A DNA stretch of 64,000 bases. Origin: Capsulimonas corticalis (lineage in GTDB: Bacteria; Armatimonadota; Armatimonadia; Armatimonadales; Capsulimonadaceae). A model generated the notes under the pieces. It worked only from the letters and a program-made list of their open reading frames with translations, was not told the DNA's origin and made no database searches. Where the stretch lies: positions 2,728,001 through 2,792,000 of the forward strand of contig NZ_AP025739.1 of assembly GCF_003574315.2 (NCBI RefSeq). Reading direction: 5' to 3'. Both the position numbers and the translations under genes were made by a program. Below, in pieces: positions 20,992 through 43,548 of this stretch. Every line of letters begins with the position of its first letter. Positions within the stretch are counted from its first letter, which is position 1.

Positions 20992-21768
20992 TCAAATCCC
21001 CCCAGCGATTAGCCCAAGAATCCGTTCGCGCAGGACCTGGAAATCTTGGTCGGAGCGCCGGCGGGGGCGGGGCAGGTCGATGCGCAGGTCCAGGGTGGCG
21101 CGGCCTTCGTCGATGACCACGACGCGGTCGGCGAGAGCGACGGATTCTTCGACATCGTGCGTCACGAGGAGCACGGTGCATCCCCGCCGCCGCCAAAGAT
21201 CCTCGATCAGCCGCTGCATTTCGTAGCGGGTCAGGGCGTCGAGCGCCCCCAGCGGTTCATCGAGCAGCAGCAGCTCCGGATCGCCGGCGAGCGCGCGGGC
21301 GAGGGCGACGCGCTGGCGCTGGCCGCCGGAGAGCACTGAGGGCCAGTCGTTCGCGCGGTCCGAAAGACCGACATCGGCGAGCGCGCTCTCGGCTTTGCGC
21401 CGCCAATCTTTCCCAAGCCCCAGTCCGACATTGCTGACGACGCGCTCCCATGGCAGCAGCCGCGCGTCCTGAAACATTACCCGCGCCGCGTGGTTCAGGC
21501 CCCCGAGAGGACGCCCGTCGATACGGACGCCCCCGCCGCTGGGCTGGTCGAGACCGGCCAGCAGACGCAGCAGCGTGCTTTTTCCGCAGCCGCTTTTGCC
21601 GACGATGGCGATGAACTCGCCGCGCCGGATCTCCAGGTCCAGGGCGCGCAGAACCTTGCGCGGTCCAAAGTCCTTATGCAGATCCTGGACGTGGACATGG
21701 ACGGGAGCGGCGGTCGCCTGCGATTGCTCGCCTAAAAGCGCGCCGTATTCTGATAGTTGGGATGCCAT
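20992..21768 (-). CDS. ssuB: ABC transporter ATP-binding protein, aliphatic sulfonate type
   Basis: The start at 21768 ([15 protein letters not shown]) overlaps the end of the permease gene by 37 bases; 258 residues. Walker A is [10 protein letters not shown], the Q-loop region [15 protein letters not shown] is typical of the SsuB/TauB group, the signature is [15 protein letters not shown], and Walker B is [12 protein letters not shown] followed by the His switch VTHDVEE. It powers import of sulfonates by the neighbouring permease and binding protein. It is the last gene of the first sulfonate operon. Confidence 0.92.
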
Positions 21769-22580
21769 TGCAGAAATGTCCTTTCCAATCCTTTGGCGAC
21801 GAGGTCGGCCAGCTTGCCGAGCGTCGCATAGACGAGAGTTCCCAGCACCACGACATCCGTGCGCATGAACTCTCGCGCGGTGGTCGTCATAAATCCGATC
21901 CCGGAATCGGCCGCCAGAGTCTCCGCCCCAATCAGCACGAGCCACATCATTCCCAGCGCGAAGCGCAGGCCGATCAGGATCGACGGCACGGCTCCAGGGA
22001 AGATCACGCGCCAGAACAAAGTCCACGGCTCTAGGCCATAGACCCGTCCCATCTCCTTCAAACCCTTGTCCGCCGTGCGGATCCCGTGATAGGTGTTCAG
22101 ATACATCGGAAAGAAGACGCCGAGCGCGACCAGAGTCACCTTCGCCTCCTCGCCGATGCCGAACCAGAGGATGATCAGCGGGATCATCGCCAGGTTGGGG
22201 ATCGTGCGGAGCATCTGCACGGTGCTGTCCAGAAGCTCCTCCGCGATGGGCCAGGCTCCGTTCAGCAATCCCAGCAGAAAGCCGATCCCGCCGCCGATGG
22301 CGAAGCCGACCAAGGCGCGGCCGGAGCTAACGGCGATATGTCGCGGCAATTCGCCGGTTTGAATCAAATGCGCGCCGGCTTGCAGCACGGCGGTTGGGGC
22401 GGGCAGGATGCGCGGCGCGATCCAGCCGGACTGCGCGCCAATCTGCCAGACGGCGAGCAGCAGCAGCGGCAGCAGCCAGGGCAGCAGGACGCGCGGGCGA
22501 AGCTGAGAGACTTTGTGGGGGGCGGCGCTGGCGGCGGCGATGGGCTTAACCCAAATCCGACGGGCCGGTAAAACTTTCAT
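21732..22580 (-). CDS. ssuC: ABC transporter permease, aliphatic sulfonate type
   Basis: 282 residues with about six membrane segments. The first is [20 protein letters not shown]. The EAA loop that contacts the ATPase is seen as [20 protein letters not shown]. The start at 22580 follows the first ssuD stop by 15 bases. The order ssuA, ssuD, ssuC, ssuB is the one known from Escherichia coli, with an extra ssuD here. Confidence 0.92.
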
Positions 22581-22595: not shown

Positions 22596-23786
22596 TTATG
22601 GACGCAATGCGCTGGAAAGAGACCCGTTTTCCGAGAGGCGCGCTTCGGCGCTTTCGGAAGCGTCGTACCGCCGGAGCACGCGCAGGTCGGCCGCCTCCGG
22701 CGCGCGATACGCAAAGACGCTGTCCGCCGCCGAAAGTTTGATCTGGTCGCGCCGGATCAGCGGGAATACGCCTTCGGCGAAGTGATAGGACTCTTCCAGG
22801 CTGGGATAACCCGAAAGCACAAAGGTATCGAACCCGATGTCCGTGTATTCTTTCATCCGCTGGTAGACCGACTCGGCGTCGCCGACCAGCGCCGTCCCCG
22901 CGCCGCCTCGGACAAGGCCGACGCCCGCCCAGAGATTGGGGCTGATCTCCAGCTTGTCGCGCCGCCCGCCGTGCAGCTGCTGCATGCGCCGCTGGCCTTC
23001 GGATTCCGACCGGGCGAACTGGGCCTGCGACGCGGCGATTTTGTCGTCATTCACATAGCGGATCAAACGCTCGGCGGCTTCCCAGGCTTCGCGCTCGGTT
23101 TCGCGCACAATCACATGCAGTCGAATGCCGAAACGCACCGTGCGTCCGTGCAGCGCGGCGAGACGGCGCACTTCGTTGATCTTCTCGGCGGCCAAAGCCG
23201 GCGGCTCGCCCCAGGTCAGATAAACGTCCACATGCTTCGCCGCCACTTCCAGAGCAGCCGGGGAGGACCCGCCGAAGTAGAGCGGGGGATAGGGCTTGGT
23301 GTACGGATCGAAGCGCAATTGGGCGTTTTCGATCTGGACATGCTTGCCATGGAAGTTCACCTCCTCGCCGCGCAGCAGGGCGCGCCACACGGTGAGATAC
23401 TCATCCGTGTGGGCGTACCGCTCGTCATGGTCCAGAAAAACTCCTTCGTTTTTCAGCGGACCGCCGCCGGTGACGATGTTCAATAGCAGGCGTCCCTGCG
23501 AGATATGGTCGAATGTCGCCGCCATGCGCGCCGCGAGCGCCGGCGGCAGGATGGAGGGCCGATGCGCGACGAGGAATTTGAGCTTCTCGGTCGCGGTGAT
23601 GAGAGAGGTCGCCACAATCCAGGGATCTTGTTTCAGCCCCGTTCCGAGCAGCATTCCCTCATAGCCCAGGTTGTCGACCGCCTGCGCGATCTGCGTGAGA
23701 TATTTGTGCGTCGGCTGCCGCTGTCCGATCGTCGATCCAAGATATCGTTCATCGCCTTGCGTCGGCAGATACCAAAAAACATGCAT
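22596..23786 (-). CDS. ssuD: FMNH2-dependent alkanesulfonate monooxygenase, copy 2 in the operon
   Basis: 396 residues of the bacterial luciferase-like (LLM) fold. It starts [17 protein letters not shown], and [20 protein letters not shown] and [20 protein letters not shown] are SsuD hallmarks; the Arg-containing mobile loop corresponds to [20 protein letters not shown]. SsuD cleaves alkanesulfonates to an aldehyde and sulfite using FMNH2 and O2. A flavin reductase (ssuE) is not in the window. A 134-base internal tract is almost identical to the other ssuD copy although the flanks differ. Confidence 0.92.
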
Positions 23787-23821: not shown

Positions 23822-25027
23822 TCAACTGGCGAGACCTTCGGCGAGCGCCGGGGCGTGTTTCGGAATCGAGTGTCCGGTATGCACGCTGGGAATGCCGTTG
23901 TGCCCGTCGCCGAACCGGAACGCCAGCTTCGGCTCCACGGTCTGCGCTCCCGAATTGTCGGCGAGCCGGCTTGGGTGGGACAGCGGCAGGTAGGGGAAGG
24001 TCAGCTCGGCGAAGCGGATGGCCTCCTCCAGATGGGGGTATCCGGAGAGGACGAAGGTGTCGATTCCGATCTCGCCGTACTCCTTCATCCGCTGGGCGAC
24101 CGTTTCCGGGTCGCCGACCAGGGCCGTTCCCGCGCCGCCTCGGACGAGTCCGATGCCGGCCCAGAGGTTGGGGCTAATCACCAGATTGTCGCGTCGTCCT
24201 CCATGCAGGGCGCTCATGCGCTGCTGTCCGACGGATTGCGAGCTGGCGAACTGCTTTTGCGCGGCGGCGATCGAGTCGTCCGTCACATATTTGATCAGAT
24301 CGTCGGCGGCCGCCCACGCCTCGCGCTCGGTTTCGCGGACGATCACATGCAGGCGCATGCCGAACTTGACGGTGCGCCCGTGCAATGCGGCGAGGCGGCG
24401 CACTTCGTTGATCTTCTCGGCGGCCAAAGCCGGTGGCTCGCCCCAGGTCAGATAAACGTCCACATGCTTCGCCGCCACTTCCAGAGCGGCCGGGGAGGAC
24501 CCGCCGAAGTAGAGCGGAGGATAGGGCTTCTGCACTGAAGGGAAGAGGTTTTTGCCTCCCTCGACGCGCAGATGTTTGCCCTCGAAATTGACTTCCTCAC
24601 CGCCGAACAAGCCGCGCCAGATCGTGAGGAACTCATCGGTCACTTCGTAGCGCTCGTCGTGTTCGAGAAAGACGCCTTCTTTCGCCATCTGCGCCTGGCT
24701 GCTTCCCGTGACGACATTGATGAGCAGGCGTCCATTGGAGGCGCGGTCGAAGGTGGCGGCCATCTGCGCGGAGAACGTCGGGTTGATCACGGACGGGCGC
24801 GCGGCGATCAAGAATTTGAGATTCTTGGTGAGCGGGATGAATGAGGACGCCAGCACCCAGGCGTCCTCACAGCCCGGCCCGGTCGGCAGCAGCGCGCCGT
24901 AATATCCCAGCTCGTCGATGGCGACGGCGATCTGCTTGAGATAGTCGTGCGTCGATTCGCGGCGGCCGATCGGCGATCCAAGGTAGCGACCATCGCCGCC
25001 GGTGGGGAAAAACCAGAGTACGTTCAT
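23822..25027 (-). CDS. ssuD: FMNH2-dependent alkanesulfonate monooxygenase, copy 1 in the operon
   Basis: 401 residues starting [17 protein letters not shown], overlapping the ssuA stop by ATGA. The family motifs [40 protein letters not shown] and [20 protein letters not shown] are present. The C-terminal 45 residues (from about residue 356) differ from copy 2. Two SsuD enzymes in one operon may widen the range of sulfonates used. Function as in the other copy; the difference in substrate cannot be read from sequence. Confidence 0.92.
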
Positions 25028-26103
25028 CGTGTTATTTCCTTTATCTTCTCTGCAACTTGCGGCTCTTGAGCGGGGGCGAGCCGCGCATATTGTTCGGGCG
25101 TCAGCGTCGCCTGCCGGACATCGATCTTTTGCGGGATCAGCCCAATATTTGCGAACGCGTCCGCTTCTTTTTGCTGGAGCGCAATGACTTCCGGGGTGAT
25201 TTCTCGGTAATTCGTCGTGTAGCCGTTGCGCACGATCTGTTCGAGAGTCGGTACATCCAATCCCAGGTCGGGCGATAAGATCTGCGCGGCTTCATGGGAA
25301 TGATCGTGCGACCAGTCGCCGGCCTTCTTGGCTTCCTCCAGAACGGCCTTCACGAGGTCCGGATGCTCGACGGCGAATGTGCGCGACGCGAGGTAGAAGC
25401 CGCCGCTGGTAGGCAGGTTCGCGCCGTCCCGCAAAATGCGCGCGCCGGTTGTGTGTCTGGCGATCGATAGGAACGGATCCCAGATCACCCATCCATCGAT
25501 GCTGCCGGAGGCGAACGCGGCCTGCGCGTCCGGCGGGGAAAGGTAAGTCGGCTGCACGTCGGAGTATTTCAGTCCGACCTGCCCGAGCGCCTGCACCAGA
25601 AAATAGTTGGCGCTGGAGCCTTTTTGGAAGGCGATCTTCTTTCCGCGCAGATCCTGAAGGGTCTTCGCGGGGGAATCTTTGGGGACGATCAGCGCCTGTC
25701 CGACGGCTTCGGCTTTGGGCGACGGCGGCGTGTTGGCGACATAGACCAGCGGGACGCCGGCGGCCTGGGCGAAGATCGGCGGAGTATCCCCCGCCGATCC
25801 GATATCGACGCTATTCGCGCCGATCCCCTCCAGCAGCTGCGGCCCTGCGGGGAAGTTCAGCCACTGCACGGTCACGCCTTTGGGAGCGAGCCGGCGTTCA
25901 AGATCGCCGCGCAGCCGCAGCAGGTTGAGACTGCCGCCGCGCTGATAGCCGACATGAAGCACCGTTCCTTGCGCGGACTGCGCGTGCGCCGCCGCGCCGT
26001 TCATCCCATCATGACGCGCGCAGCCCGAGGCGAGAAGGGCGGCGATTCCCAGGACAAATGTCAGCGGACGCGCCGCCCGAGTTCTGCTGGTCATGGCGAT
26101 CAT
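25024..26103 (-). CDS. ssuA: Sulfonate ABC transporter substrate-binding lipoprotein
   Basis: 359 residues. The signal ends in a lipobox ([11 protein letters not shown]), so the mature protein is lipid-anchored. [20 protein letters not shown] is the usual SsuA/TauA beginning, and [20 protein letters not shown] and [14 protein letters not shown] are ligand-domain signatures. The start codon follows the prepilin stop with no gap (TAAATG), with GGGGA inside the end of the prepilin gene as ribosome site; an alternative ATG lies nine bases further in. It delivers sulfonates to SsuC/SsuB. Confidence 0.92.
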
Positions 26104-26976
26104 TTAGTTCCCCGCGGTGTCGTCCAGGTAGAACCCGACGGCGTTGGTGTTCTCACTGCGCTTGTAGGTGATATTTGAGGTGTCGGTGGTGGGAACGACG
26201 GTGAGGCCGCTGACATCCGCCACGCCGGTGTAGCTCGGGTTTGGCGAGCGCACCCACTTCACATGCCCGTCGGTAAATGCATAGTGCGATCCGCCGCTAT
26301 GCCGTCCCCGCGCCAGAACGTGTGAGATATTGTTGTCGTGGTTCACGTTTGTGTCCGAATAGCCGCTTCCGCCGGCCGGGACCGGCGGGTCCGCCGAGGT
26401 GTCGTCGCCGGCGGAAAATACGCGGGCGCCGGCGCCTTCCGAAATGAGCACCTGATTGGCCGGGTAGTTGATCGAGGCCAGCGTGAGAGGCGCCGTGTTC
26501 GCCAGATTCCAGGGGGTGCCAGGCGCCAGAGCCGGAGAGATATTTTCGTTGATCGCGTAGCTGTACTGAGGCGTCCCCTGCGGCGACGTGGCGGAGGTTC
26601 CGAAGGCGCCGATCGGAGCGTAATCCGGGCAAATATAGACGTTGTCTTTCTTGACGCCCGCCTGGGAGTTCGCGTAACCTTGCTTGATGTACGGCGTGAT
26701 CATTCCATACCAATGCTGGCGGTTCTGCGCGACGCCGGCGATGTCTACGTAGCTCGGATCGCTAATGTTAGCGGGCGGGAACTGCTCGTCATAGTCCTGA
26801 ACGTATTGGATCAGGGCGAGGACCAGCTGCTTTTCATTGGAGGAGCAGCGAGTCTGGCGCGCCTTTTCGCGGGCCTGGGCGAAGACCGGGAAGAGGATCG
26901 CGGCAAGAATCGCGATAATGGCTATGACGACGAGTAATTCAATCAGAGTAAATCCGCGATGGCGAATGCTGGACAT
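26104..26976 (-). CDS. Prepilin-type protein (DUF1559-like), first gene of the sulfonate operon
   Basis: 290 residues starting [15 protein letters not shown] with the class III cleavage site after Gly-8, then [16 protein letters not shown]. The C-terminal signature is [17 protein letters not shown], a good H-X9-DG match. AAGGAG lies upstream of the ATG. It is the first reading frame after the sulfonate promoter and leader, and its stop codon touches the ssuA start, so the two should be co-translated. A role of such a protein in sulfonate use is not known to me. Confidence 0.87.
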
Positions 26977-27224: not shown

Positions 27225-27327
27225 ACGAGAAAAGGCCAGACGCGGAAAATCCATGCGTCTGGCCTCTCGTCGCCGAGTGAGCAGTTTTTCAATTACTAGT
27301 TTTTAAATAACCAAACTTATGTTATTG
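27225..27327 (-). promoter_or_regulatory. Candidate structured leader RNA of sulfonate operon 1
   Basis: Minus-strand transcript 5' to 3': a hairpin (AATAAC/GTTATT), then AAAACTAGTAATTGAAAAAC (27303-27284), then a GCGA-capped hairpin (CTCG/CGAG), then a long stem GGCCAGACGC/GCGTCTGGCC (27264-27234) followed by TTTT, with outer pairing ACGAG/CTCGT. The CGAG of the tetraloop hairpin is also used by the long stem, so the two folds compete, as in attenuators. The same order of parts occurs upstream of the second sulfonate operon (32510-32628). The rest of the 26977-27224 leader shows only one more hairpin, GCGCCTCG/CGAGGCGC; no protein is convincing. An alternative is a simple terminator of the upstream gene. 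Confidence 0.5.
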
Positions 27328-27356
27328 AGTATACCGGGTCCTTGTGCGCATGTCAA
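27328..27356 (-). promoter_or_regulatory. Promoter of sulfonate operon 1
   Basis: TTGACA (27356-27351), a 17-base spacer and TATACT (27333-27328) make a near-perfect sigma-70 promoter directly behind the stop codon of the upstream peptidase gene. The first gene starts about 350 bases downstream, leaving a long leader. Confidence 0.85.
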
Positions 27357-27358
27357 CA

Positions 27359-28210
27359 CTATGAGGAATGTTTTTTCGCGCCCTTTTCATCGGCTTGTAT
27401 TTCGGGAGGCGCAATGCGTCTGTCGTTCAAGTCGAATCGCTCTCCCGCCGAGAGAAAGTAGAATTTGCCCTTGCTTCCCGCGTTGTTGGGGGATGTGTTT
27501 TCGGTCCCGCTCCACTGTTCGCGGTCGAAGATGGCGACGTAACTTGCGCCGACAACTTCCAATCGATTTCCCTGCGCGACAACGGCCGTCCCTTCGTCGA
27601 TCCCAATGCCCAGCAGCTCGGGATGCTCGCCGATGACGGAGATCAGGTCGAATTGCCGGTTGCGGCGCAGGAGGTGCTGGTCGATGGCGGCGGCTTTCAG
27701 AAAACCGAAGCCCTCCACGTGGTCGCCGATCATCAGTTCATTCCCGGCGGTGTCGCCGCGCACCAGAAACGATCCCTGAATCGTGGCTCCGGCGGATGTT
27801 CCTCCGATGACGCCGCCGCGTTCCAGCAGCGCGGCAAGTTCCTGATGCACCCGGGTATGCAGATACGCGTCGGCTAGACGCCACTGGCGGCCGCCGGTGA
27901 GCCAGACGCCGGTCGCCTCGCGCAGCGGGGCGACGAACTGCGAGGTGTCCGCTTCCTTCGGATCACGTGTATGGAGAACCTGGATGCGCCGCGCCCCGTG
28001 CTGCGCTAATTCTTTCGCCGTATCGTCGTCCGTAACGGAAAGGTTTTCCTGCGCCGTGGGGATGATGACAATCCGGGCGTCCGCTCCTCCGGCAAGCGTG
28101 AGAAATCGGTCCCAGATCTCAGGGCCGATCTCTCCGCCGCCGACGATGACCAGGGCGCCGCGCGCCGGGCCGATGGCGCCATGGTCCGAGATGGATGTTG
28201 GTGTGGTCAT
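27359..28210 (-). CDS. Cyanophycinase-like peptidase, family S51
   Basis: Start taken at 28210 (MTTPTSISDHGAIGPARG); about 283 residues, the usual S51 length. GALVIVGGGEIGPEIWDRFL opens the domain, and the nucleophile Ser is in GGVIGGTSAGATIQ. IGIDEGTAVVAQGNRLEVVG is a cyanophycinase-type C-terminal motif. Cyanophycinase releases beta-Asp-Arg dipeptides from cyanophycin; other S51 members cleave Asp-X dipeptides. No cyanophycin synthetase is in the window. It is the last gene of the second sulfonate operon, 20 bases after the membrane protein gene. Confidence 0.8.
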   Translation of the reverse strand: MTTPTSISDHGAIGPARGALVIVGGGEIGPEIWDRFLTLAGGADARIVIIPTAQENLSVTDDDTAKELAQHGARRIQVLHTRDPKEADTSQFVAPLREATGVWLTGGRQWRLADAYLHTRVHQELAALLERGGVIGGTSAGATIQGSFLVRGDTAGNELMIGDHVEGFGFLKAAAIDQHLLRRNRQFDLISVIGEHPELLGIGIDEGTAVVAQGNRLEVVGASYVAIFDREQWSGTENTSPNNAGSKGKFYFLSAGERFDLNDRRIAPPEIQADEKGAKKHSS

Positions 28211-28230
28211 GATTGTGTCTCGCGAGCTTT

Positions 28231-29790
28231 TTATCGCAGCGCCCTGCTCCAGAGGGTTGCATAGGCGGGAATTCGGCGGACCCAAATTGGCCCATCCGGA
28301 CCCGCGTAGACCAGCGCCCAGCGGGGATCGTGCGTGAGCGCATGGTAGAGATTTGGATAGTGCGATTCGTATCTGGGATCGCGCCGCCGCCCGACCACGC
28401 AGCAGACGCCCTGTTGATCCAAATAGGCGAGCCCCGTTTCATCGGCGGCGAAGACATGCGCGGCGATGGGGAGGAGTTCATCTGGATAGGCGTTCAGCCC
28501 ATCGATAAACAGCGTGTTGTGTCCATAAAGCTCCCATTCCAAATACGATGCGTTGTTATAATCGTTGAAGATACGCCCCGTCACGGCGCTGCGTTTCAGG
28601 TAAGCGATCTGGCCGACGGGGGCTGTGTCGGGCGCGGGCGCCGTCAGCGCGGTCAAAGATCGTATTGCTAAGGCGACCAGCGCGGCGGCGAGAACCGGCG
28701 TCAGCAGCGTAAGAACCGGAGAAGCGGCTCGCCCGACGGTCGGGGCGTTGGCTTTTCGCAGGCGCGGCGCGAAATCGAAATATTCGAAAAGCACCGTGAG
28801 CGAGATCAGCGAGGACGTCAGGATATTACGGCGCGCGATGAGAAGCGAGGCGACCCCGAGAAGCAGCCAGAGCAGGCGCGACCAGCGTCGATCGGGATTG
28901 CGAACCCAGGCGGTGAACGCCAGCGCAGTAACCAGCAGCGCCGACAGCAGCATCGGCGGATGGAAGATCGGCAATGCCAGCGCCGGCCGCCACTCCTCAA
29001 TGCTGGCGAAGACGCCGGGATTGGTCGGAATGAAGGCGCGATAGTAGAGCGCCCCGTAGGGATTGACGCACACCGAGGCCGCCGCGACGGCGAACAAGAC
29101 CGCGATGCGCCGCGTTTCCCAGGACCTCGGCGACTGCAAGGCTTCCCCGATCAGCAGCAGTCCCAGCAGAGCGAGGCCGACCGCCACGCCGCCATGCAGA
29201 TTCGCCCAGAGAATAAAGAGCAGGGACACCGGCAGCGCCCGACGCCGAAGAAACGATTTCGTGTTTGTGAGAGGCGATCGCCGCCAGGAGATCGCCATGG
29301 GAAGCAAAATCACGAGCGCGAGATTGGAAAACAGCTCAGGGCGCAGCTGAAACCGAGACGCGCCGGCGAATACCGCCAGCGCGGTCGCCGCGACCGCGAG
29401 GAACGAATGAGGGCGCCGGCTTGAAGATGCGGGGATCGCAAAGACGGCGGTCAGGAGCAGGATCTCCAATATCAGTCCCGCCGCCGCTCCTGCGTCGCCC
29501 AGGCGCGCGATCCCATAGATCAGCGCCTCGGAAAGCCAGGAATGGGCGATCCAGGGCGAGTCCGCGCTCCAAAGAAAGAGCGTGCGCCCTGGAATGGCGT
29601 GATGCTCGACGATCCAGCGTCCGACCGCCGCATGCGCGTAAAAATCGCTGTCGGCGGTCAGCGGCCGGATCGCCGAAGCAATGGCGAGGATGAGCGCAAG
29701 CAAACCAGGGATGGCCCGCAGAGCCGCGCGCGATATTGTTCTGGGGTAAGCAATATCATCCACGGTATGTTTTTCAGAGACGAATATCAT
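28231..29790 (-). CDS. Polytopic membrane protein, GT-C glycosyltransferase-like
   Basis: Start at 29790 (MIFVSEKHTVDDIAYP), 519 residues, with about ten or more hydrophobic segments between residues 20 and 420. The first loop has DSDFYAHAAVGRWIVEHHAI and SPWIAHSWLSEALIYGIARL, a pattern I know from uncharacterised GT-C-fold proteins where an early acidic loop carries the catalytic Asp. The C-terminal 110 residues form a soluble domain (GRIFNDYNNASYLEWELYGH, FIDGLNAYPDELLP). No specific substrate can be named. It lies between a sulfonate-type monooxygenase gene and the peptidase gene in the same operon. Confidence 0.6.
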   Translation of the reverse strand: MIFVSEKHTVDDIAYPRTISRAALRAIPGLLALILAIASAIRPLTADSDFYAHAAVGRWIVEHHAIPGRTLFLWSADSPWIAHSWLSEALIYGIARLGDAGAAAGLILEILLLTAVFAIPASSSRRPHSFLAVAATALAVFAGASRFQLRPELFSNLALVILLPMAISWRRSPLTNTKSFLRRRALPVSLLFILWANLHGGVAVGLALLGLLLIGEALQSPRSWETRRIAVLFAVAAASVCVNPYGALYYRAFIPTNPGVFASIEEWRPALALPIFHPPMLLSALLVTALAFTAWVRNPDRRWSRLLWLLLGVASLLIARRNILTSSLISLTVLFEYFDFAPRLRKANAPTVGRAASPVLTLLTPVLAAALVALAIRSLTALTAPAPDTAPVGQIAYLKRSAVTGRIFNDYNNASYLEWELYGHNTLFIDGLNAYPDELLPIAAHVFAADETGLAYLDQQGVCCVVGRRRDPRYESHYPNLYHALTHDPRWALVYAGPDGPIWVRRIPAYATLWSRALR

Positions 29791-29821
29791 TGGCGGCGCT
29801 GCTTTTCGGGAAGCACGAGAA

Positions 29822-31204
29822 TCAATTGAACTCTGACAGTTTGAATTTTTCGCGATCTTCCAGCGCGGAGATCCCTGGCTGTCCGGCGAACTTGTTGGCG
29901 GGACGCGCCAGGCCGTAGTGCTCGCGGAGCGTGTTTCCCGTGTATTCCGTCCGAAACAGCCCGCGCCGCTGAAGTTCCGGCACGACAAGGTTCACGAAGT
30001 CTTCCAGGCCGCCGGGAAGCGTGGCCGGCATGACATTGAAGCCGTCCGCCGCGCCGCCGGTGAACCATTCCTCCAGCTGATCGGCGACCTGGATCGGCGT
30101 TCCCGCGAAGGTGCGATGCCCGCGTCCTCCGGCCAGACGGAAGATCAGCTGCCGGATGGTGAGGTTTTCCCGGTGCGCGAGATCCGTCACCAGCTGGAAC
30201 CGGCTCTTGTGTCCGTTGATCTCCTCGATCGGCGGCGTTTCCGGCAGGGGCCCGTCGAGTGGGTACTCCGCGAGATCGACTTTGAGGATGCTGGAAAGCT
30301 GTCGAATCCCCTGTTCGGGCGACACCAGGGCGTGCAGGGCCGCTTCTTTGTCGAGCGCCTCGGACTCCGTCTCGGCGATCACGGCGGAGATGCCCGGCAG
30401 GATCTTGACATCGTCGGGAGTGCGTCCGTAATGGGGGAGGCGCGATTTGACGTCGGCGTAGAAATCGCGGCCTTCCTGAAATGTCTGCTGGGCGGTAAAG
30501 ATCGCCTCGGCGTACTGCGCCGCGAACTCTTTGCCGTCCTCGGACGAGCCGGCCTGCACCAGCAGGGGATACGCCTGCGGCGAGCGCGGGATGTTCAGCG
30601 GGCCGCGCACGGAGAACCATTCCCCGCGATGCTCGATCTCCCGGATCTTGTCGGGATCGACATAGACTCCGGACTCTTTGTCCGCAATGCGCGCGTCATC
30701 GTCCCAGCTATCCCAGAGGGAGGTCGCGACCTCCAGAAATTCGCGCGCCTTGTCGTAACGCGCCGCGTGCTGCAAATGCTCCTCGCGCCCGAAGTTCTGC
30801 GCCTCGCGCTCGTTGCCCGAAGTCACGATGTTCCAGCCGGCCCGCCCGCCGCTCAGATGGTCCAGCGAGGCGAAGCGGCGCGCCACATGGAACGGCGCGT
30901 TGTAGGTGGTGGAGACGGTGCCGATCAGGCCGATCTTCTCAGTGACGGCCGCCAGGGCGGACAGCAGCGTAAACGGCTCCAGACCGCCTTGCAGCGACGA
31001 TTTCGAGGTCGACCAGGTCGCCAGGCCATCCGCGAGGAACAGCGAATCGAGCTTGGCGCGCTCGGCCGTCTGTGCGATCCACTTGAAATATTGGAGGTCG
31101 AAGATCTCCTCGATATGCGCGTCCGGATCTCTCCAGGCGGCGGCGTGGTGGCCGACGCTCATCAAAAAAAGATTGAGATGCAACTGTCGTTTTTCCTGGC
31201 TCAT
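29822..31204 (-). CDS. FMN-dependent monooxygenase, NtaA/SnaA/DszA family
   Basis: The start at 31204 (MSQEKRQLHLNLFLMSVG) has AGGAG eight bases upstream. The 460-residue protein shows the family marks HHAAAWRDPDAHIEEIFDLQ, WNIVTSGNEREAQNFG and GTPIQVADQLEEWF. The long C-terminal part is typical of NtaA/SoxA/DszA rather than SsuD. Members oxidise nitrilotriacetate, dibenzothiophene sulfone, sulfide or similar substrates with FMNH2. Placed directly after an SsuA-like binding protein gene, it most likely attacks an organosulfur compound. Confidence 0.88.
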   Translation of the reverse strand: MSQEKRQLHLNLFLMSVGHHAAAWRDPDAHIEEIFDLQYFKWIAQTAERAKLDSLFLADGLATWSTSKSSLQGGLEPFTLLSALAAVTEKIGLIGTVSTTYNAPFHVARRFASLDHLSGGRAGWNIVTSGNEREAQNFGREEHLQHAARYDKAREFLEVATSLWDSWDDDARIADKESGVYVDPDKIREIEHRGEWFSVRGPLNIPRSPQAYPLLVQAGSSEDGKEFAAQYAEAIFTAQQTFQEGRDFYADVKSRLPHYGRTPDDVKILPGISAVIAETESEALDKEAALHALVSPEQGIRQLSSILKVDLAEYPLDGPLPETPPIEEINGHKSRFQLVTDLAHRENLTIRQLIFRLAGGRGHRTFAGTPIQVADQLEEWFTGGAADGFNVMPATLPGGLEDFVNLVVPELQRRGLFRTEYTGNTLREHYGLARPANKFAGQPGISALEDREKFKLSEFN

Positions 31205-31234
31205 TCCATTTCTCCTATCCAAAACCATCGTCAA

Positions 31235-32278
31235 TTACTGCGCGATCTTTGCGGACGCCTGAACCGTCTTGGAGGCGTCCGTGGGAGTCAGAAGCGCATA
31301 CTGCTGCGGCGTCAGCGTATTCTGCCGGACATCGATCTTTTTGGGGATCAGGCCGATTTTCGTAAAGCTATCCGCTTCTTTTTGCTGAAGCGCGATCACA
31401 TTCTCGTCAATCGCGCGATATCCCGTCGTGCTGCCTCGCCGAATGATCTGCTCTTCCTCACCGATCTCCAGTCCCAGATTAGGGGCGAGAATCGCCGCGG
31501 CTTCATGAGGGTGCGCGTGCGACCAATCGCTGATTGCCTTGGTCTCCTCCAGAGTCTCTTTGATCAGATCGGGATGGGCGACCGCGAATGTCCGCGAGGC
31601 AAGATAGAAGCCTCCGCTGGTTTCCGTCTGTGAGTTGTCCGGCAGCAGGCGTGCGCCGTTCTCGCGTTCGGAGATCGTGACATATGGCTCCCAGGTGACC
31701 CAGGCGTCGATGTTGCCGGTGCTGAACGCGATCTGGGCGTCCGGCGGCGCGAGGTTCACCGCGTGAATATCGCGGTATTGAAGTCCGGCGTGGTTCAGCA
31801 CCTGCACCAGCCAGTAGGTCGACCCGGATCCTAGCTGCAGCGCGACGCGCTTGTCGCGCAGGTCGCTGGTCGTGCGAATCGGCGATCCCTTCGGCAGCAG
31901 AAATCCGCCTCCGCGCAGCGGGCCGGGCGGCTGGTTCGCGGCGTAGACGAACGGACTGCCGGCGGCCTGGGCGAAGATCGGGGGCGTGTCGCCTGCCGAT
32001 CCCAGGTCGATGCTGCCCGTACCCAGCCCCTCCATCAACTGCGGCCCCGCTGGGAACGGCAGCCACTGCACCGTGACGCCCTTTGGCGCCAGCTTCTTCT
32101 CCAGATCGCCGCGCAGCCGAAGCAAGTTCAAGCCGCTCTGCCGCTGATAGCCGATCCGAAGGACGACATCGCTTCCGGCGTGCGTCTGCGTGTCCGCCGG
32201 ATGGCGGCATCCGGCGAGCGCCAGAACGGCGACTGTCAGAGAGGAAAGAGCAGTCTTTGTCTTCACATTTTTCTCCAA
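31235..32278 (-). CDS. SsuA-like substrate-binding lipoprotein of sulfonate operon 2
   Basis: 347 residues. Signal with lipobox VLALAGCRHP, then [40 protein letters not shown] and IDAWVTWEPYVTIS align with the ssuA product at 25024-26103, so the two are paralogues. TTTTTGGAG precedes the ATG. No permease or ATPase gene follows in this operon, so it may share the SsuC/SsuB of the neighbouring operon. Confidence 0.88.
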   Translation of the reverse strand: MEKNVKTKTALSSLTVAVLALAGCRHPADTQTHAGSDVVLRIGYQRQSGLNLLRLRGDLEKKLAPKGVTVQWLPFPAGPQLMEGLGTGSIDLGSAGDTPPIFAQAAGSPFVYAANQPPGPLRGGGFLLPKGSPIRTTSDLRDKRVALQLGSGSTYWLVQVLNHAGLQYRDIHAVNLAPPDAQIAFSTGNIDAWVTWEPYVTISERENGARLLPDNSQTETSGGFYLASRTFAVAHPDLIKETLEETKAISDWSHAHPHEAAAILAPNLGLEIGEEEQIIRRGSTTGYRAIDENVIALQQKEADSFTKIGLIPKKIDVRQNTLTPQQYALLTPTDASKTVQASAKIAQ

Positions 32279-32509
32279 AAATAGTTTATCACTGACTTCT
32301 TAAGAGTTTTGAAATCCACAAATATCACGATTGGACGCAGAACGCCTGTTGTGATTTCACGGTTCGTGAGTGAGGGATTAACAGAAGCAGTGTTGACAAA
32401 GACAGCGGGAGCAGGCGAGGGGATGGCGGAAAACAGGGCGCTGATATGGGTGATCGTGATTTGCTGTGTCATAAGTATTGACCGAATGGCGAGCAGCCGT
32501 AAAGCAAAT

Positions 32510-32628
32510 AGGCCAGGCGCCGCTCTCAACATGGAGCGATGCCTGGCCTCAAGACGTCTCGTCAGCCGCGACTTTCGTCGCTGGTTTTACAATAGTAGTT
32601 TTGATACCGGAAAAGTATCTTTTGCGTG
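32510..32628 (-). promoter_or_regulatory. Candidate structured leader RNA of sulfonate operon 2
   Basis: Minus-strand transcript 5' to 3': hairpin GATAC/GTATC, then AAAACTACTATTGTAAAAC (32602-32584), then a GAAA-capped hairpin GCGAC/GTCGC inside CAGC/GCTG, then GACGAGA, then the stem AGGCCAGGC/GCCTGGCCT (32549-32510) with an inner CGCTC/GAGCG stem. The final T-tract is weak (ATTTGCTTT). Order of parts and the unpaired linker match the leader at 27225-27327, while stem sequences differ but still pair. I see no convincing protein in the remaining 32279-32509. Confidence 0.5.
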
Positions 32629-32657
32629 ATTATAGTCGGTTCCGCCACGGATGTCAA
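32629..32657 (-). promoter_or_regulatory. Promoter of sulfonate operon 2
   Basis: TTGACA (32657-32652), 17-base spacer, TATAAT (32634-32629): full consensus sigma-70 promoter. It stands about 350 bases before the start of the binding-protein gene, the same distance as in operon 1. Confidence 0.88.
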
Positions 32658-42693: not shown

Positions 42694-42795
42694 TTTCGTT
42701 TTGTAGAGATTTGTGTTGAGCGAAGATTGGGGGCGAGGACAAAAAATCCAGCCTCCAGTTTTCTGGACAGCCGGATCGGGTGGTTCGAATATTTC

Positions 42796-42898
42796 GATCT
42801 CCGTTGGCGCGGTCAATCGAAAATCAGGCGGATCTCCGCGCGTGCGGTCAATCCTATGGGTCCGATCTCCGGTTGTCCGGTCGATCGGAGTTGCGACG
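42796..42898. repeat. Degenerate direct repeats of about 34 bases
   Basis: The 366-base gap between the two convergent metal-motif genes contains GATCTCCG at 42796, 42831 and 42864, each followed 8-9 bases later by CGGTCAATC or CGGTCGATC. Units are 35 and 33 bases apart and otherwise diverged. No gene is seen in the rest of 42694-43059. Confidence 0.4.
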
Positions 42899-43059
42899 CT
42901 TCCAGTTGACTGGTTCTCCATGTGGCGCATGGAAAGGCGCGCAGGGTTGATGTCTTGAATGCGTTTGGCGACGCATCAAGGCAAAAGCGAGAGAGACCTT
43001 GGCGGGTCTCCATCAAAGTTGATTTCAGAAATTCGTTACGTCAGCGCTTACCGAAGTCG

Positions 43060-43548
43060 TTAGGCCATCATCGCGCAGCACACCGGCATATTGTTCATCA
43101 TCATCATGCACATGCAGCCCGCAGCCATCATGCTCTTCATGCACTCGCCGCACGCCTGAATCATTTTAGCACAATTTGCATCGCCGCTGGTGCATGTCAT
43201 CATCACGCCGTCTTCCATCATTTCGCATTCGCACTTCGCCATCATCATGTTGCAGCAGCAGACGGCCATGCCGTTCATCATCATGCAGCAGGAGCATCCG
43301 GCGCCTTCCATCATCATGCAGAGGCTCTGCATCATCTTCGCGGACATCTCATCTTCGCATTGACACATCATCTTCATGCCGCCCTCGCACATTTCAATCA
43401 TCATTGTGCATCGTGGCGTCATCATCATATTCATACCAGGCATCATGCCCGGCGCCATTCCCATGTTGGAAGCCATCGGCATTCCCATACCCGCGCCCAT
43501 CGGCATGCCGGTCATCATTCCGCGGTCCATCGTCATCATGGTGTCCAT
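43060..43548 (-). CDS. Methionine- and cysteine-rich protein, putative soft-metal (copper) binder
   Basis: The start at 43548 (MDTMMTMDRGMMTGMPMGAG) has GGGAG nine bases upstream. By my count the 162 residues include 54 Met and 21 Cys. The first 45 residues are Met/Gly/Pro-rich with no Cys before residue 47. The rest is two related units: about 60-104, with GAGCSCCMMMNGMAVCCCNM, and about 116-162, with AAGCMCMMMMNNMPVCCAMM. Met and Cys thiol/thioether clusters bind Cu(I) or Ag(I) in copper-handling proteins such as Csp and CusF-like proteins, but I cannot assign it to a family. No signal peptide or usual membrane segment is seen. Confidence 0.7.
   Translation of the reverse strand: MDTMMTMDRGMMTGMPMGAGMGMPMASNMGMAPGMMPGMNMMMTPRCTMMIEMCEGGMKMMCQCEDEMSAKMMQSLCMMMEGAGCSCCMMMNGMAVCCCNMMMAKCECEMMEDGVMMTCTSGDANCAKMIQACGECMKSMMAAGCMCMMMMNNMPVCCAMMA

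Follow-up and report, generated by a model that had tools for sequence, protein, structure and literature searches.

Between the promoters and the first genes of two sulfonate operons in Capsulimonas corticalis lie leaders that share a common design, which raises the question of what kind of RNA they carry and which of its parts might sense sulfur. Both leaders reside on the minus strand of a 64-kb stretch (hereafter called the window) of the 7.6-Mb genome of this bacterium. The original prediction proposed an uncatalogued RNA associated with sulfur genes, with an aptamer formed by a hairpin at the 5ʹ end and a constant linker. The first part of this proposal stands, because the leaders do carry an RNA with compensatory changes, terminator overlap and many copies. 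The second part does not, since the conserved portion is a different hairpin located farther downstream. The features of the window are collected in Table 1.

Table 1. Features of the window that are relevant to the two leaders and to the hairpin array (positions as numbered in the window)
Feature	Position	Strand	Sequence or remarks
Leader 1 promoter, sigma-70	27356..27328	-	TTGACA-17-TATACT
Leader 1 5ʹ-end AT-rich hairpin	27306..27326	-	AATAAC/GTTATT; kept only within the genus
Leader 1 AT-rich linker	27284..27303	-	AAAACTAGTAATTGAAAAAC; ACTAGTA-type words also in other leaders of the genome
Leader 1 element	27261..27283	-	TGCTCA-CTCG-GCGA-CGAG-AGGCC; R1 rank 2 in window, 22.6 bits, E 0.0046
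Leader 1 intrinsic terminator	27230..27264	-	GGCCAGACGC...GCGTCTGGCC-TTTT; GGCC base common to the element
DUF1559 prepilin-like gene, first behind leader 1	26104..26976	-	starts at 26976
ssuA, sulfonate-binding protein	25024..26103	-	TIGR01728 above cut-off
ssuD, alkanesulfonate monooxygenase	23822..25027	-	TIGR03565 above cut-off
ssuD2, second ssuD-type monooxygenase	22596..23786	-	
ssuB-like ABC ATPase	20992..22026	-	
Leader 2 promoter, sigma-70	32657..32629	-	TTGACA-17-TATAAT
Leader 2 AT-rich linker	32583..32602	-	
Leader 2 element	32545..32567	-	GGCTGA-CGAG-ACGT-CTTG-AGGCC; R1 rank 1 in window, 22.7 bits, E 0.0044
Leader 2 terminator-like stem	32501..32548	-	GGCCAGGC...GCCTGGCC-TATTTGCTTT; base common to the element
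ssuA2, sulfonate-binding protein	31235..32266	-	starts at 32266
NtaA/DmoA-family FMN monooxygenase	29822..31204	-	TIGR03860
Tandem array of ~5 element-type hairpins	42740..42930	-	R1 ranks 3, 4 and 6 in window, clustered at 42750-42913
Gene for 162-aa protein	43060..43548	-	54 Met + 21 Cys (46% Met+Cys); array in its 3ʹ UTR

Strong promoters followed by early terminator stems

As had been described, each leader starts with a near-perfect promoter with a 17-base spacer, positioned approximately 350 nt upstream of the first gene. Leader 1 serves the gene series DUF1559-ssuA-ssuD-ssuD2-ssuB, and leader 2 serves ssuA2 and the gene for an NtaA/DmoA-type monooxygenase. Perfect promoters number 224 across the genome versus 2 in a reversed control, and therefore those of the two leaders are strong yet ordinary. 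What is unusual in both leaders is not the promoter but the early terminator-like stem. Among 30 control promoters, only one, that of a tRNA gene, is followed by a strong terminator-type stem within the first 130 nt. The strong GGCC stems noted previously in both leaders are confirmed by fold z scores of -5.8 and -5.0.

A 23-nucleotide hairpin shares its base with the terminator

Strong promoters with GAGGCC 50-80 nt downstream, a combination that yields 0 hits in a control, are found at the two window leaders and at further leaders in this genome and its relatives. Those in C. corticalis and in one relative (G001) precede genes for SsuA-family transporters or for AprA/TfrA-like FAD proteins with ferredoxin, and another in G011 precedes a DUF1559 gene. 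When these leaders are aligned on GAGGCC, all of them exhibit the same small hairpin. This 23-nt element has the architecture P1-GA-CCNG-NNNA-CNGG-A-P1ʹ and the consensus GGCUGA-CCNG-NNNA-CNGG-AGGCC, wherein a P1 stem of ~4 bp (GGCU/GGCC), an internal loop (GA/A) and a 4-bp P2 stem are capped by a tetraloop that mostly ends in A. A covariance model (R1) built from 27 sequences, with the window copies left out, places the elements of leaders 2 and 1 as the top two sites of the 64 kb.

This alignment also corrects the earlier comparison of the two leaders. The sequence features described for them are present, but the hairpin with a GCGA loop in leader 1 had been equated with one carrying a GAAA loop in leader 2, where its true counterpart is instead the next hairpin, CGAG-ACGU-CUUG. 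Likewise, the sequence GACGAGA, taken to be an equivalent feature, is placed differently within the elements of leaders 1 and 2.

The predicted overlap between a leader RNA element and the terminator is found at the GGCC that both have in common. The last four bases of the element form the 5ʹ base of the terminator, where they pair with the GGCC located just before the U-tract. Both window elements reside 5ʹ of sulfur genes with a terminator, although leader 2 has only a poor U-tract; the copies at 554k, 4772k and 6610k of the same genome lack a clear terminator. Because P1 takes the GGCC/GGCC pairs beside the U-tract, P1 and the full terminator should be mutually exclusive, whereas P2 can be compatible with the latter. 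Folding calculations predict that the terminator state is favoured over the P1 state by 8.6 kcal/mol in leader 1 and by 8.8 kcal/mol in leader 2, and that a nascent RNA ending at the end of the element folds into P1 and P2.

The aligned sequences indicate that both P1 and P2 covary and are preserved by compensatory changes. In 23-mer numbering, pair 8-17 occurs as CG, UA, UG or GU and pair 9-16 as AU, GC, CG or UA, and in P1, too, both partners of a pair change (GC/AU, CG/UA). Among 48 sequences, 93.8% of cells are paired and double changes number 54 versus 13 in shuffles, with 0 of 500 shuffles reaching 54, although many of these sequences were collected by means of patterns or models in which part of the element is fixed, and the models R2 and A5 are biased toward the structure to which they were fitted. 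A less biased check of pairing employs a pattern in which the middle pairs are left free. Both pairs form in 16 of 20 matches from genomes that carry a DUF2292 gene (see below), compared with 8 of 40 matches elsewhere (Fisher p = 1e-5).

Neither the element nor the leaders match any family in Rfam 15, including SAM, T-box and other riboswitch and leader families, either at the gathering score or at relaxed E-values. This result bears out the earlier view that the RNA falls outside the S-box and other known SAM motifs.

The 5ʹ hairpin and linker are confined to close relatives

The hairpin sequence and linker formerly assigned the role of aptamer are not kept even in two genomes of the same family (G003 and G005), where the regions upstream of ssuA have promoters and a 5ʹ hairpin without the linker. 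When up to 3 mismatches are permitted, the linker pattern occurs convincingly only at the two window leaders in the 7.6-Mb genome. Two further matches seem unrelated, and the first of these, the third match in the genome, was ruled out because of its unrelated context. Other families do not share this hairpin and linker, and so the two do not carry the signal. A pseudoknot between loop and linker (AGUUU/AAACU) was seen in leader 1, but was rejected since it is weak or absent in other leaders when judged by eye. Separately, the words CTAGT and ACTAGTA recur in the AT-rich 5ʹ segments between promoter and element at nine loci within this genus.

Copies precede sulfur genes in several phyla

The existence of other copies upstream of sulfur genes had been put forward as a test of the original prediction, and such copies were found both in the same genome and in several phyla. 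Model R2 identifies ~15 leader copies in C. corticalis, of which 12 have a promoter 26-62 nt upstream. The downstream genes include ssu genes, those for an SsuE-like FMN reductase, four AprA-like FAD proteins and a redoxin, and several DUF1559 genes. In nearly all ssu operons of the order (the window operon and six other loci among them), ssuA is immediately preceded by a DUF1559 prepilin-like gene, and many copies of the element likewise have a DUF1559 gene as the first one downstream. Near-identical tandem copies of an element and a DUF1559 gene at positions 4771904 and 4773136 of the genome represent a recent duplication.

An exact-pattern scan of named genomes returned at least 115 stretches, many of which are chance matches inside genes. 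Among the matches listed, a terminator follows 37 of the 84 in which the free pair is formed versus 2 of the 32 in which it is not (p = 4e-5). Genes behind the paired matches listed comprise cysJ (in Methylobacter), sat, cysK and further PALP-family genes, msrA, metQ and luxS, as well as those for O-acetylhomoserine sulfhydrylase, sulfite reductase, SBP_bac_11 binding proteins, rhodanese, NMT1/SsuA proteins, a luciferase-like monooxygenase and NifB/NifH-like proteins, the last of which we take to resemble those that occur with methylthio-alkane reductases. In several phyla, most genes behind the element thus have roles in taking up or assimilating sulfur. The element of cysJ and cysK leaders is located just ~15 nt past the apparent promoter. 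No relatives of the locus were found when sought via SsuA, and no such leader was seen at the CysD/CysH (PF01507) loci examined. With copies 5ʹ of sulfur-assimilation genes in many bacterial phyla, the hairpin appears to be a widespread sulfur switch that has so far gone undescribed.

A small protein family is associated with the element

In many loci from several phyla, 16-90 nt separate the element from the stop codon of an upstream gene that encodes a DUF2292 protein (PF10055, YezD family) of 50-90 amino acids. The C. corticalis gene resides at genome positions 554387-554494, with an element 88 nt behind. DUF2292 is clearly present in 22 of 291 genomes of the phylum. Named matches from Chthonomonas and from an Armatimonadetes genome are identical to loci in G079 and G038, respectively, which identifies this phylum as Armatimonadota. 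The exact element with its pairs formed occurs together with DUF2292 in 14 genomes, and one of the two occurs alone in 8 and 8 genomes, respectively (Fisher p = 3e-13 for 291 genomes), a value that overstates independence because the genomes are related and have a lifestyle in common. This co-occurrence could also stem from both components belonging to sulfonate users.

The apparent exceptions can be broken down further. Model R2 finds an element in four of the eight genomes that had only DUF2292 (G004, G015, G080 and G247), and no element was detected in four genomes (G002, G017, G081 and G234) where DUF2292 is present. Several matches in genomes with only the element sit inside long reading frames, and in G001, which is 69% complete, the copy is at the start of a contig where an upstream gene would be cut off. 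The one real exception among the fairly complete genomes is G011 (90% complete), which has the element and in which DUF2292 was not found. In G003, ssu genes are present without DUF2292, and the element is absent from the ssu leader.

The predicted DUF2292 fold is helix-strand-strand (pLDDT 84). Comparisons with the PDB by sequence and by fold gave no significant match, including none to a known RNA-binding fold. The open-licence literature yielded nothing relevant about YezD or DUF2292, nor about a cysteine riboswitch or a leader of cysK.

A hairpin array follows the gene for a Met- and Cys-rich protein

The R1 sites of ranks 3, 4 and 6 in the window cluster in a tandem array, located 145 nt past the stop codon of the gene that encodes a protein rich in methionine and cysteine. 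The P1 helices of the array differ (CCGAUC/GAUCGG, GGAUU/GAUCC, UUUCGAUU/GAUCGAAA and CCGGC/GCUGG), and the last hairpin is directly followed by ATTTTTT, the U-tract of a terminator. A genome from another genus (G004) encodes a homologue that is 71% identical and whose gene is also followed by such hairpins, two in number, and this locus adjoins a DUF2292 gene; the two hairpins were left out when R2 was built. The 162-aa protein, which has no match in Pfam or NCBIfam, is possibly a sulfur store or a metal binder, and the array has the appearance of a sponge or of another site under regulation. This points to recognition of the hairpin itself by a protein.

Possible mechanisms of control

The leaders are probably transcription attenuators of a sulfur-assimilation regulon, in which the hairpin would serve as an antiterminator that a factor acting in trans, possibly DUF2292, stabilises. 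We infer the switch, its signal, its binder and the direction of control as follows. Since P1 and the terminator presumably cannot form together, a leader left alone would adopt the terminator, by 8-9 kcal/mol, and expression would be OFF by default. A trans factor made or activated at times of sulfur shortage would then bind the nascent hairpin and hold P1, such that RNA polymerase reads through. The likeliest candidate is the small DUF2292 (YezD-family) protein, which might act as HutP and LicT do on the operons to which they belong. Termination by default, relieved by an antiterminator that depends on a factor, is the most economical interpretation. More tentatively, DUF2292/YezD could constitute a new family of tiny RNA-binding antiterminators that read the 23-nt hairpin in several phyla and are titrated by 3ʹ-UTR arrays. 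If true, titration of DUF2292 by the array in the mRNA for the Met/Cys-rich protein would link the storage of sulfur to its uptake.

A metabolite riboswitch, in which the hairpin alone or together with the upstream AT-rich part binds a sulfur metabolite (e.g. O-acetylserine, cysteine or sulfide) without the aid of a protein, appears rather unlikely. Conservation of the unpaired GA/A and loop A nucleotides, the terminator overlap and the coherent sulfur regulon are all consistent with such a device, and the short distance to the promoter in cysJ and cysK leaders implies that the element is the whole of it. However, the upstream part is conserved only within the genus, the tandem 3ʹ-UTR arrays and the DUF2292 linkage fit a protein better, and to our knowledge there is no riboswitch aptamer as small as 23 nt. 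Given this core size, the array and the DUF2292 link, a metabolite riboswitch is no more likely than an antiterminator bound by protein.

It is improbable that there is no switch at all and that a favoured terminator or 3ʹ-end module, or a source of short RNAs, lies before sulfur genes by chance. A promoter with a terminator ~100 nt farther on would also yield an sRNA, and one hairpin array does reside in a 3ʹ UTR, but P2, the GA bulge and loop A are conserved though unneeded for termination, and placement just 5ʹ of sulfur genes and 3ʹ of DUF2292 is too consistent. Least probable is a ribosome-mediated attenuator wherein a Cys-rich leader peptide controls the terminator: peptides such as MISPNPFLPLMRCCCCRCTCGSR are encoded behind the promoter in four ssu leaders of a sister family (two each in G015 and G018), three of which also carry the element before the terminator, but neither window leader has an ATG or Cys-rich frame before the terminator, and the single Cys-containing candidate frame in leader 1 sits 3ʹ of it.

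Relationship to known regulatory systems

The antiterminator proposed here resembles the RAT antiterminators of BglG/LicT-type proteins and the target of HutP, in that a short hairpin overlaps an intrinsic terminator and has bases in common with it. In HutP-type operons that control themselves, the regulator gene is often first with a terminator behind it, and the order DUF2292, element and terminator, and sulfur genes is similar. However, no sequence kinship with these systems was seen, sulfur genes are concerned here, and the candidate DUF2292 is far smaller. Like S-box (SAM) and other sulfur riboswitches and T-box RNAs, the leaders appear to control sulfur or amino acid genes through a terminator, but they differ by the lack of an Rfam match, by a core of 23 nt and by targets for sulfate, sulfonate and cysteine use. 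The array is reminiscent of CsrB/RsmY-type sponge RNAs with their repeated protein-binding hairpins, yet the hairpin is another one, the array is located in a 3ʹ UTR and titration here is putative.

Naville and Gautheret 2010 (PMC2965389) refer in a single sentence to an attenuator, left without a name, that precedes the operon for a sulfonate ABC transporter in bacilli. On that one-sentence description, it too is a terminator-based leader before sulfonate genes, and it might be the same element. Beyond this possible mention, no description of the element was found in open-licence papers, and an earlier one may exist elsewhere.

The element offers one candidate for the control of cysteine, sulfate and sulfonate assimilation in many bacteria without CysB- or CymR-type control, including nitrogenase-like NifB/NifH systems. 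Because the 23-nt pattern is recognisable, sulfur regulons can be annotated directly. The proposed role would also be the first functional hypothesis for DUF2292/YezD, a family that is present in Bacillus subtilis and for which no functional paper was found.

Leader peptides and tandem promoters

Mycobacterial polycysteine ORFs are cysteine leader-peptide attenuators. A further example is uORFC-8-2, located upstream of cysS (PMC8632094). In the sister family, ssu leaders show a similar putative cysteine- or sulfur-responsive attenuation, which in three of the four is combined with the element. A Cys-rich uORF between promoter and terminator was found in G015 and G018, whereas the same arrangement was rejected for the window leaders, which differ by having no Cys ORF before their terminators. 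The four leaders with Cys-rich peptides suggest that sulfur-responsive attenuation of ssu is common in the order.

Elsewhere in the C. corticalis genome (positions 598617-598946), three similar perfect promoters are spaced ~150 bp apart, each with a similar transcript start, and this set resembles an sRNA-like tandem repeat.
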